This document shows, one piece after another, positions 14,468 through 45,563 of a stretch of 64,000 bases of DNA. This DNA is from Aeriscardovia sp. (GTDB taxonomy: Bacteria > Actinomycetota > Actinomycetes > Actinomycetales > Bifidobacteriaceae). Made by a program: the position numbers and the translations under genes. The stretch lies in assembly GCA_017405305.1 (NCBI GenBank), contig JAFRAT010000007.1:1-64000 (forward strand). Reading direction: 5' to 3'. Position 1 is the first letter of the stretch. Each line of letters begins with the position of its first letter. The notes beneath the pieces were generated by a model. It was not told where the DNA came from and ran no database searches. It was given only the letters and a program-made list of their open reading frames with translations.

Positions 14468-15483
14468 TGGAACCTCCTCTGGCGGTAGAAGTCGATGCCC
14501 AGTTCCCACAGGCACAGTAGCGAGAGCGCCATCGCGTACGGCCACACCGTGATGTCGCGCTGCGAGTGCTTGCGGCGCGTCTGCTCGACGAGGTAGCTGT
14601 GCGAGGTGTCGGGGGTGAGCTTGCTGACGGTGCTCGTGGCATCCAGCATCAACGACGTGCCGCCGAACTGCTCGCCAATCTGCTGAAGGTTCTTCGGATC
14701 CTCCTTGGAAATGGCCGGTTGGTGCGTCTTCGGATCGTCGATCCATTCATCGCCGTCCTGAGCGCTCGTCACGGCCCCAGCGGCGATGTACGGCACCTTG
14801 CCGCCGGCGGCGGAGCCGACTCCCAGCGCCGCTCCGGCGTCGACGAACTGCCGCAGCGGGCTGAAGGAGGCCTGCGGGACAGCGGACGTCTGGTCACCGT
14901 CGGAGATGAAGTACAGCACGATGGTGTTGTTCGGATGCTCTTGATGCACCTTCTGCATGGCGAGCAGCAGGGTGTTGACCGGCTCGCTCAGCTGCGTGCC
15001 GTTCGACACGGCCGTCGGCTCGACCTGCAGGCCGTCCAACCAGTCATGGATGGCTCCGGTGTCCGGGGTCGGCGGGACGGCGAGGTCCGCGGACGCGCCG
15101 AACGTGACGCCGGCGAAGCTCGCGCCCGGGTACAGGGAGACGATGCCGTTGATGGCATCCTTCGCTGCCTGCAGGCGGGTGATCTTCGCGGGGGAACCGT
15201 AGGTCGCATCGTCGACGGCCATGGAGCCGGTGATATCGACGGCGAAGAAGACGTCGGTTCCCGTGACGACCTGCGACGAGTTGGTGGCGGTCGCGGTCGG
15301 ACCCAGGCTCATCACGACCAGCACGAGGGCGATGAACCCGCGGCGCGTCCAGTCGAGGACGGTCGAATCGGAGCGGCCATGGTCGCGCAGGAAGAGGAAC
15401 AGGCCCACGCAGAACGCGGCGAGGACGACGACGTCGAAGACGATGGCGGCGGCCCAGTTGTTGAGAAGCGGCACAAAGGTCAT
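14464..15483 (-). CDS. VWA-domain membrane protein (Bat-like, second VWA)
   Basis: A 339-residue protein with two N-terminal membrane segments (~10-33 and ~47-62), a von Willebrand factor A domain and one C-terminal membrane segment. The metal-ion-dependent adhesion site begins at DITGS (D83, T85, S87), with a later conserved Thr in NGTQLSEPV and Asp in FISDGDQT. VWA proteins encoded beside MoxR and DUF58 genes form envelope-associated complexes of the Bat type. The ATG at 15483 overlaps the upstream stop by four bases (ATGA). An in-frame upstream codon would add 21 residues that are only a shadow of the preceding gene. Confidence 0.82.
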   Translation of the reverse strand: MTFVPLLNNWAAAIVFDVVVLAAFCVGLFLFLRDHGRSDSTVLDWTRRGFIALVLVVMSLGPTATATNSSQVVTGTDVFFAVDITGSMAVDDATYGSPAKITRLQAAKDAINGIVSLYPGASFAGVTFGASADLAVPPTPDTGAIHDWLDGLQVEPTAVSNGTQLSEPVNTLLLAMQKVHQEHPNNTIVLYFISDGDQTSAVPQASFSPLRQFVDAGAALGVGSAAGGKVPYIAAGAVTSAQDGDEWIDDPKTHQPAISKEDPKNLQQIGEQFGGTSLMLDATSTVSKLTPDTSHSYLVEQTRRKHSQRDITVWPYAMALSLLCLWELGIDFYRQRRFQ

Positions 15484-42799: not shown

Positions 42800-42913
42800 A
42801 TGCTGGACGGCGATAATCTTCCTGTTTTCGCGGTGCCGACAGTGTCCACCGCTTGTTCGGCGCCAGATTTTTTAAAGAGAGGCATCCAATGCACAGGGTA
42901 TCGGAAGGTTTGA
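42800..42913 (+). CDS. Possible 37-residue leader peptide upstream of and overlapping the lipoprotein gene
   Basis: ATG preceded four to five bases by GGAGGG, the best ribosome site in this interval. The peptide starts MLDGDNLPVFAVPTV and ends GYRKV; it has no known relative that I recognise. It runs in a different frame across the lipoprotein start (42889) and stops at 42911-42913, where TGATG offers restart at an in-frame Met of the lipoprotein. It may be a translational leader, or a chance frame; the hairpin directly upstream favours some regulatory role. Confidence 0.35.
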   Translation: MLDGDNLPVFAVPTVSTACSAPDFLKRGIQCTGYRKV

Positions 42914-43764
42914 TGGCGATCGTGGCGTCGGTGGTGCTGTGCATCGGCTTGGCGGCGTGCGGCAACGCGGATTCCGGCTCGTCGGCATCGACTTCCCAGT
43001 CGAACGGCATGGCGAAGTACAGCGGCGACACCGTGATGTCGATGGCCTTCCGCCAGGGCAGCCACATCTGGCTGCTGTCCGGCGTGCCGAACCCCGACGC
43101 AGTCATCAACCAGGCCTTTTACTTCCATGACGGGAAAGTGACCGTGTTCCAGTACGTAGGCGACGACGACCTGACGTACAGGCAGATCGAGGACAAGCCG
43201 GATGACCAGGCCATTCAGACCCTGTACAAGTCCGACCGCGCTGGTTGGGACAAATGCTATCCGGACACCAGGTACGCGGTGCCAAAAGCCACCAACTACA
43301 CGTTCCGTCTCTACACCAGCTCTTCCAAAGACGGTGATCCAAGCGTGGAAGCACTGATCGACCCGAGCGTGCTCGATCCGATCGACGGCGCGTTGTCCAT
43401 GATCCAAGCCACGCAGAACGAGGGCGTCACCCCAGCCGGAGACACGCTGGACCTGCCGTTGGCCGACATCAAAGCCGTCGACCGCAACAGCCAGCTGGGC
43501 ACGCTGCATAACAACTTCCACGTAGGCGATCAGCGATATGCGGGCTACGTCAACTGGAACGTGGTGCTCGACAACGTCAAGCAAGGCATCACGCTTGGCC
43601 ACGAAACCGTATACCCCAACAAGGAGTACCTGGTGACTAAGGTAGCTTCGGATACAGCAACCTTTTCGCTTGACCCAGCTGACACCGGGGCATCTGACGT
43701 CGTCTGGCACGGCACTATCGACCTGGCAGCGAGCCTGTCAAAGAATAATGTGAACGCGCAGTGA
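42889..43764 (+). CDS. Lipoprotein of unknown function
   Basis: A 291-residue secreted lipoprotein. The signal peptide (MHRVSEGLMAIVASVVLCIG) ends in the lipobox LAAC with Cys 24 as the lipid-attached residue, followed by a Ser-rich linker (SGSSASTSQS). The mature part has regular hydrophilic/aromatic alternation suggestive of a beta-rich domain (VTVFQYVGDDDLTYRQIED, GYVNWNVVLDNVKQG). I do not recognise the family. The ATG at 42889 follows AGAGAGG by six bases; ATG 42913 would leave a signal peptide without positive residues. Confidence 0.8.
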   Translation: MHRVSEGLMAIVASVVLCIGLAACGNADSGSSASTSQSNGMAKYSGDTVMSMAFRQGSHIWLLSGVPNPDAVINQAFYFHDGKVTVFQYVGDDDLTYRQIEDKPDDQAIQTLYKSDRAGWDKCYPDTRYAVPKATNYTFRLYTSSSKDGDPSVEALIDPSVLDPIDGALSMIQATQNEGVTPAGDTLDLPLADIKAVDRNSQLGTLHNNFHVGDQRYAGYVNWNVVLDNVKQGITLGHETVYPNKEYLVTKVASDTATFSLDPADTGASDVVWHGTIDLAASLSKNNVNAQ

Positions 43765-43817: not shown

Positions 43818-43858
43818 AGGTGGGAAACACCCGGATCGCGTCCGGGCGTTTCCCACCT
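43818..43858 (-). terminator. Terminator between the lipoprotein and metallothionein-like genes
   Basis: AGGTGGGAAAC and CCCGGA pair with TCCGGG and GTTTCCCACCT with one mismatch. On the minus strand the stem is followed by TTTTC, so it mainly serves the metallothionein-like gene, and may also slow plus-strand transcripts from the lipoprotein gene. Confidence 0.8.
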
Positions 43859-43916: not shown

Positions 43917-44108
43917 TCACTCGTGGTGGCAGGTGCAGGCCTTTCCTTCCTGGCAGCCTTCACAGTGGCAGTCAGGACCGCAAGCGCAGGAACCCTTCTT
44001 CGGCGCGTGGCACTGGCATCCAGACTCGCTGTGGCACTCGCTGGCCTCGCCTTCACGGCAACCGTGGGAGCATCCTTCTCCGCAGCACTTCTTCTCTTCG
44101 TCGGCCAT
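43917..44108 (-). CDS. Cysteine/histidine-rich metallothionein-like protein
   Basis: A 63-residue protein with 14 Cys (8, 9, 13, 17, 25, 31, 33, 41, 43, 47, 49, 52, 58, 60) and 6 His, arranged mostly as CxC, CC and CxxC: GCQCH, CACGPDCHCEGC, CTCHHE. This composition is that of a metallothionein-type protein binding soft or transition metals in thiolate clusters. It lacks a signal peptide, so it should act in the cytosol as a metal buffer. The ATG has AAGGAG eight bases upstream. A perfect cop-box palindrome lies 94 bases before the start, pointing to copper-responsive control. It matches no named metallothionein that I can identify. Confidence 0.85.
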   Translation of the reverse strand: MADEEKKCCGEGCSHGCREGEASECHSESGCQCHAPKKGSCACGPDCHCEGCQEGKACTCHHE

Positions 44109-44201
44109 GATGGCATCTCCTTTGCGTAGGCATTCCGATATCTTCCGACAGCGTTCGGCTCTGGGGCGCGTGGAGCGCTGCCCATCGCCCTCCCACTGTC
44201 T

Positions 44202-44217
44202 GTTTACAAATGTAAAC
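44202..44217. promoter_or_regulatory. Cop-box-like operator GTTTACAAATGTAAAC
   Basis: A perfect 16-base palindrome whose core TACA-AA-TGTA equals the cop box (TACANNTGTA) bound by CopY-type copper repressors. It lies 94 bases upstream of the cysteine-rich gene on the minus strand, in the only intergenic space where its promoter can be. The matching repressor gene is not in this window. Confidence 0.65.
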
Positions 44218-44587
44218 GAAAATGGCCGCGAAGGGAAGTCACCCGCGCCGCGGTTTTGCTGTGAGTGGAGGAAGAGAACGAGAAGGAAACGTAAAGGTGC
44301 GCTTCGTCTTGTTCGGGATACGTCTGCATAACAAGGGGAATGCCCGATGAACACGGGAGAGAGGCGCGGGCATGGCCGAGGATTCCATGACGAAGGAGCA
44401 GAAGTGCGAGGAACACGTCGAACGGTCTGACCGATCGCCAGCGTATTACGTGGAACGGTCGACAGCCGGCATCTCAGAGCTATGCTACCAGTGCTATGCT
44501 CTACCGATTCTTCGCACGGTATGCGACTGGCAACACGGGCCTTTGATACGCAAAAATGGGCGACGCGTTCCGCAGGTTCCGCAGTGA
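44218..44587. other. Gene-poor stretch upstream of the cop box
   Basis: About 370 bases. One open frame on the plus strand (44372-44587) could code for 71 residues rich in Cys and charged residues, but it has no convincing ribosome site or relatives and lies among decayed sequence. I do not call it as a gene. Confidence 0.4.
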
Positions 44588-44794
44588 CACCACACCATTG
44601 AGGGGGGGGGGAGGCTGATCGGCCACCTGGATGCCCTGACGGCCGCCTGCTACGGGCTGAGGCATGAGGACTATCAAGCCGTGCTCGCCGCGTTCAAAGA
44701 CGGGAGCATCCCCGCAAATGAGAAGAAAACTCGCCTTGAGGCGTTCAACGACATCCTGCTCGATGGATGGCCGCCCGTCGAGGAGACTGAATAG
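44588..44794 (+). pseudogene. C-terminal remnant of a DNA methylase / type II restriction-modification protein
   Basis: The frame read from 44612 gives RLIGHLDALTAACYGLRHED, YQAVLAAFKDGSIPANEK and KTRLEAFNDILLDGWPP, ending at TAG 44792-44794. The LDAL-x-A-x-YGL-x-x-x-DY-x-x-VL-x-x-F pattern is typical of the C-terminus of large N6-adenine methylases of the Eco57I/type IIG kind. No start codon or upstream domains remain. A tract of ten G (44602-44611) marks the left edge, and the same frame is stopped at 44585-44587. It is either a decayed gene end or, less likely, part of a phase-variable gene. Confidence 0.5.
44602..44611 (+). repeat. Homopolymer tract of ten G
   Basis: Ten consecutive G bases, the longest homopolymer in the window, directly before the methylase remnant. 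Such tracts are prone to slippage and also to sequencing error. Confidence 0.7.
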
Positions 44795-45490
44795 AAAAAC
44801 AGCCAGGCGGAATTCAAAAGATCCTCCCGTACTAGGGGCTATGGGCTTTTAGAACTCGGATTCTCGCCGGTTTTCTTCGGCTTCGGCTTCGGGGCATCGC
44901 ATCTGGTAAGAACCGCTCCGCCGCTTTCATACGATACTCCAGGCCTATGCTGCAGCGCACCCATACGATCCGCTTGATCGACGAGCCGATGCCGCTTTCC
45001 GGAAGCAACGAAGGCGAACAGCTCGTACGAGGCGAGCACCCCCACCCAGGTCGCGTGTCTTGGAACGGGGTTCACAGGCTCAGCGCCACCGGTACTTAAG
45101 CTTCGGCGCGGAACTCCCTCTGGCGGCCAGCCGACTCCTACATCGGATCCTCCCAGTCATAAAGCCTTCTACCCATACCAGGATGCCAGAAGCGTCCTCC
45201 ACGCGTGCGAACCACCGCTGGAGCCTCGGTTCCCTGGCACACGCTTCACAGCCTGGTCACAAGGTGCTGATTGGAATCGCGTCAGATGCGCACAGGGCAT
45301 CCCGACGTTCTTTCGAAAGGTTTTCCCCACGCCTCCAGAAGACAACACGGAGCGGAGATTAAATCGAACCCCGCAATCCCTCCCGCGGCGCAACGCCTCA
45401 CCGTCGACTGAAAATCCACAAACAGCCCACAGCTTGAGGGAACGAAGGAGGACAGGCCACTTCCATGGGGGGGCAAGACGAAACGAAAAG
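44795..45490. other. Decayed sequence between methylase remnant and tRNA-Arg
   Basis: About 700 bases with no clear intact gene and less regular codon-position composition than its surroundings. The best candidate is a minus-strand frame at 44839-45075 (78 residues, GVLASYELFAFVASGKRHRL, tail DAPKPKPKKTGENPSS) which has normal codon preference but no start signal; it may be the end of a lost gene. I looked for a copy of the tRNA 3' end that would mark an attachment site and did not find one. Confidence 0.45.
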
Positions 45491-45563
45491 TGCCCCGGAT
45501 GCGATTCGAACGCACGACACCCGCTTTAGGAGAGCGGTGCTCTATCCCCTGAGCTACCGAGGC
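45491..45563 (-). tRNA. tRNA-Arg (anticodon CCU)
   Basis: On the minus strand the 73 bases fold as a complete cloverleaf: acceptor GCCTCGG with CCGGGGC (one U-G pair), D arm with AGCTCAGGGGATAGAGC, anticodon stem CCGCT/AGCGG with loop CTCCTAA (anticodon CCU), T loop TTCGAAT. CCA is not encoded. A TATCAT box at 45576-45581 on the minus strand fits a -10 promoter element about 13 bases upstream. Confidence 0.96.

Follow-up and report, generated by a model that had tools for sequence, protein, structure and literature searches.

A candidate CopY operator ahead of a metallothionein-like gene in Aeriscardovia

A cysteine-rich gene and its upstream box

The window, by which we mean the whole 64-kb stretch of DNA that was analysed, comes from a genome of the genus Aeriscardovia (Bifidobacteriaceae; 1.10 Mb in 20 contigs, 99.96% complete), in keeping with the initial annotation, which had spoken of a bifidobacterium-like actinobacterium. 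Four features lie at the locus:

43819–43857, no strand assigned: hairpin with a U-tract on both sides (−41 kcal/mol, z −7.6)
43917–44108, minus strand: metallothionein-like gene encoding 63 aa, from its translation; no known family
44117–44123, minus strand: Shine-Dalgarno sequence AAAGGAG, 8 bases before the ATG, read from the sequence and conserved in the sister species
44202–44217, no strand assigned: candidate CopY operator (cop box), arms GTTTACA and TGTAAAC around AA, GTTTACAAATGTAAAC; on the strand of the gene, GTTTACATTTGTAAAC

The 14-Cys protein that had been reported behind the box is the translation product of 43917–44108: 63 residues with 14 cysteines (22%), one CC and four CxC motifs, and 6 histidines. 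It resembles the metallothioneins as a functional class, being small and cysteine-rich, carrying CC/CxC motifs and retaining 14 of its 14 cysteines in the sister protein. Pfam and NCBIfam profiles gave zero matches to it at E ≤ 1, and the profile of the prokaryotic metallothionein family PF02069 (SmtA/BmtA) does not match it. About 60 bases past the stop codon lies the hairpin, followed by U's, which is likely a bidirectional terminator common to the convergent genes 42853–43764 and 43917–44108.

Across all searches, the protein was detected in two Aeriscardovia genomes only. A class-wide search of 395 genomes with a two-sequence profile returned the source genome itself as its sole match; searches of plasmids, PDB sequences and 84,980 genomes, sensitive to close relatives only, gave no homologue beyond one sister species. 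Weak matches in other Bifidobacteriaceae (E 0.003–0.008) were dismissed, none of them being a small cysteine-rich frame. The sister species is represented by a metagenome-assembled genome from cattle abomasum (Aeriscardovia sp. RGIG6), whose homologue shares 84% identity in the search and has 17 cysteines, including all 14; the two genes differ by 9- and 3-base indels that stay in frame. A third Aeriscardovia genome has copY–copA with a box and lacks the small cysteine-rich gene.

The box lies 93 bases from the ATG of the minus-strand gene. Its 7-bp arms are perfect inverted repeats; the central AA is not self-complementary, so the box is symmetrical at 14 of 16 positions and is not the full 16-base palindrome originally described. 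That AA corresponds exactly to the NN of the operator, and the box matches the 16-base CopR/CopY consensus RNYKACANNTGTMRNY, as refined in the binding studies of O'Brien et al. (2020, PMC7253601). The pattern TACANNTGTA occurs once in the window, at the box itself (mean of 0.08 in shuffles), and a first-order Markov model with the dinucleotide composition of the window (65% G+C) predicts 4e-6 occurrences of GTTTACANNTGTAAAC per 64-kb window and 7e-5 per genome. A promoter scan recognised no sigma-70-like promoter near the gene; at a guess, TACATT inside the box might serve as a −10 element.

No other convincing gene was found in the flanks of the box, the plus strand as far as the tRNA-Arg gene (45490–45563) holding short frames only. 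A plus-strand frame at 44372–44587 is interrupted in the sister species and is for that reason likely gene debris. The stretch from 44220 to 45480, about 1.2 kb between the box and the tRNA-Arg gene, is without a convincing gene.

Cop boxes and copY operons in the genome and the family

The initial annotation had suggested that a genome search for further cop boxes, a CopY/BlaI-family repressor and a copper ATPase gene would bear on its claim, and all three turned up together. Genome-wide, TACANNTGTA occurs at three sites: the window box and a pair with 28-bp spacing at the end of another contig (C9:15094–15109 and 15122–15137, sequences GTTTACATCTGTAGAC and ATCTACAAATGTAAAC). Exactly these three sites match RNYKACANNTGTMRNY, a reversed-pattern control matches nowhere in the genome, and the consensus is thus exclusive to the window box and the tandem pair. 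Contigs C9 and C16 share an exact 141-bp overlap, and in the joined sequence copY follows immediately after the tandem boxes, the second of which ends 26 bases ahead of the copY ATG. The first tandem box holds TTTACA and the space between the boxes TATCAT, 17 bases apart, a spacing that, judged from the sequence, fits a promoter covered by both operators, as would be expected. The 10-base core with one mismatch has 42 further sites in the genome, which were set aside as unspecific; in Streptococcus pneumoniae, O'Brien et al. (PMC7253601) found that too many CopY sites are predicted when only this core is used.

The genome encodes a single BlaI/CopY-family protein (PF03965), on contig C16. It passes the CopY_TcrY equivalog TIGR02698 with 125.9 bits (cut-off 121.95), carries the metal motif CxCx4CxC near its C terminus as CDCMTRGCDC, and has PDB matches to MecI, BlaI and the transcriptional regulator entry 2k4b. 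This repressor gene heads a copY–copA–copZ operon, in which the next gene, overlapping by 4 bp, encodes a P1B ATPase of the copper subfamily (TIGR01511, 590 bits against a cut-off of 397) with an HMA domain and a CPC motif, and the third encodes a 66-aa, CopZ-like HMA protein. No CsoR-family protein was found in the genome.

The sister species likewise has tandem boxes ahead of copY–copA, and its CopY carries CDCMTRSCAC. Before its small cysteine-rich gene, the box reads ATTTACATTTGTGAAC on the strand of the gene, with changes at 2 of 16 positions, one of them in the core (TGTA to TGTG), so that it fails the strict consensus. In this comparison with a single species, the 14/16 identity does not stand out from the local background: of 277 upstream 16-column windows, 83 do as well, so that it speaks neither for nor against selection on the operator.

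Among 189 genomes of the family, CopY scores above the cut-off in 12 and gives any match in 22. Strict TACA/TGTA boxes are rare in the copY-bearing genomes. Not counting the window box, the copY-bearing relatives have 23 such boxes, of which 22 precede copY, copA or a CopB-like copper ATPase gene; one AT-rich genome (G011), in which one of five boxes lies at copY, is left out of this count. The Bifidobacteriaceae are thereby shown to have established CopY operons bearing exact cop boxes, a combination for which we found no description in the literature searched.

In four genomes of another Bifidobacteriaceae genus (G003–G006), strict boxes also stand ahead of a second copper ATPase, CopB-like with a Met/His-rich N terminus (L079 1501–1554, L080, L081 and L082), from which it follows that the CopY regulon there comprises at least two units. 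Separately, four genomes from two genera (G065, G114, G133 and G151) encode 151-aa CopY-like proteins (L020–L023) with scores of 137–138 bits. The strict TACA/TGTA box is absent from these four genomes, and the proteins may be mobile and use a different operator.

Proposed regulation and alternative explanations

The box is very probably the operator of the genome's single CopY, located at the promoter of a monocistronic copper-metallothionein gene. First, the genome holds only three matches to RNYKACANNTGTMRNY, together with one CopY, a copper ATPase operon and no CsoR that we could find. Second, the strict boxes of relatives lie at copper genes (22 of 23, G011 aside). Third, the window box equals, save for the two central bases, Lactococcus lactis operators that are bound by CopR. 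Fourth, the sister species has kept the cysteine-rich protein, and the box has no other convincing gene beside it. Against these stand the core change in the sister species with its background-level identity, the lack of a recognised sigma-70-like promoter and the over-prediction by the 10-base core in S. pneumoniae; the six histidines, which make Zn or Cd binding possible, count against the copper role.

In the mechanism we propose, Zn(II)-CopY dimers would sit at low copper on the two copYAZ boxes and on the single metallothionein box, keeping both units off. Rising cytosolic Cu(I) would displace zinc at CxCx4CxC, and CopY would leave the DNA. Derepression would then let the cell export copper through CopA, with CopZ acting as chaperone, and at the same time buffer it in the cytosol with the 63-aa protein, which would hold Cu(I) through its 14 thiolates as a copper-thiolate buffer. 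The zinc/copper exchange on CopY, in which Zn-CopY represses and Cu(I) at CxCx4CxC releases, is proposed by analogy with Enterococcus hirae CopY, for which the exchange is established (reviewed in PMC7558416 and PMC10141476). CopY binding at the window box, copper induction of the gene and Cu(I) binding by the 63-aa protein are what we infer.

The gene could be under CopY without its product being a copper sink: the protein might, for example, be a metallothionein for zinc or cadmium, or a buffer of the thiol/redox state, and be called up by copper stress as well. Its six histidines and several CxH pairs are as in Zn-binding bacterial metallothioneins, no Pfam or NCBIfam match fixes the metal, and the CopR regulon of L. 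lactis includes the non-exporters ytjD and lctO (PMC7253601). We nonetheless regard this explanation as unlikely, since a CopY operator before a 22%-cysteine protein is most simply read as Cu(I) buffering, and the genome holds no other recognised copper sensor.

That the palindrome arose by chance or is a relic, without a role at the cysteine-rich gene, would accord with the altered core in the sister species, where conservation of the box is not above background, and with the absence of a canonical promoter from what we could see. Yet it is very improbable when 7e-5 such sites are expected per genome and three of the three operator matches in the genome lie at copper genes or at the cysteine-rich gene. 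Finally, G+C-rich DNA yields many spurious frames and small plus-strand ORFs are present, but that the cysteine-rich frame is no real gene and the box serves a plus-strand transcript is scarcely credible given the good Shine-Dalgarno sequence, the terminator past the stop, the 14 of 14 cysteines kept across two species with in-frame 9- and 3-base indels, and the interruption in the sister species of the only longer plus-strand ORF (44372–44587).

Novelty and relation to known systems

CopY, cop boxes, copper ATPases, CopZ and bacterial metallothioneins, including the copper-regulated MymT under RicR, are known already. Bacterial copper metallothioneins are rare, with MymT as the standard example, and are linked to CsoR/RicR-type or ArsR-type sensors. 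In the open-licence literature we found no report of a pairing of CopY with a metallothionein, or of such a gene in Bifidobacterium, and in the open literature searched no description of the 63-aa cysteine-rich family. The protein probably represents a genus-restricted, previously unrecognised actinobacterial copper metallothionein family that a CopY regulon has acquired; copper would then be answered by a sink as well as a pump, both governed by a type of repressor known chiefly from lactic acid bacteria. The new element of the proposed response is the cytosolic thiolate sink added to the pump. If true, CopY control of a metallothionein would mean that the metallothionein response to copper has been wired a second time and independently, in livestock gut bacteria exposed to copper in feed.

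The arrangement resembles several known systems and departs from each. As in SmtA/SmtB of Synechococcus, which belongs to the PF02069 metallothioneins, a bacterial metallothionein would be placed under a repressor; SmtB, however, is an ArsR-family zinc sensor, and the Aeriscardovia protein has no PF02069 match. Another is MymT/RicR of Mycobacterium tuberculosis, an actinobacterial copper-protective metallothionein with a copper-sensing repressor that also governs other copper genes. RicR is of the CsoR family and has a different operator, whereas the Aeriscardovia repressor is of the CopY/BlaI type and CsoR was not found. The CopR regulon of L. lactis (copRZA, copB, ytjD, yahC and lctO) offers a parallel in the regulation itself, with one CopY-type repressor and operators GTTTACANNTGTAAAC scattered over the genome. 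Its copR, copB and yahC operators have this sequence and are bound by CopR (PMC7253601, Table 2), and outside the two central bases the Aeriscardovia box is identical to them, although the L. lactis operators in that table include no metallothionein. Finally, in E. hirae copYZAB too, CopY carries CxCx4CxC, copY is preceded by two cop boxes in tandem, and the same operon encodes CopZ and a copper P-type ATPase. By contrast with E. hirae, the order in Aeriscardovia is copY–copA–copZ, the host is an actinobacterium, and an extra, unlinked operator stands ahead of a metallothionein-like gene.
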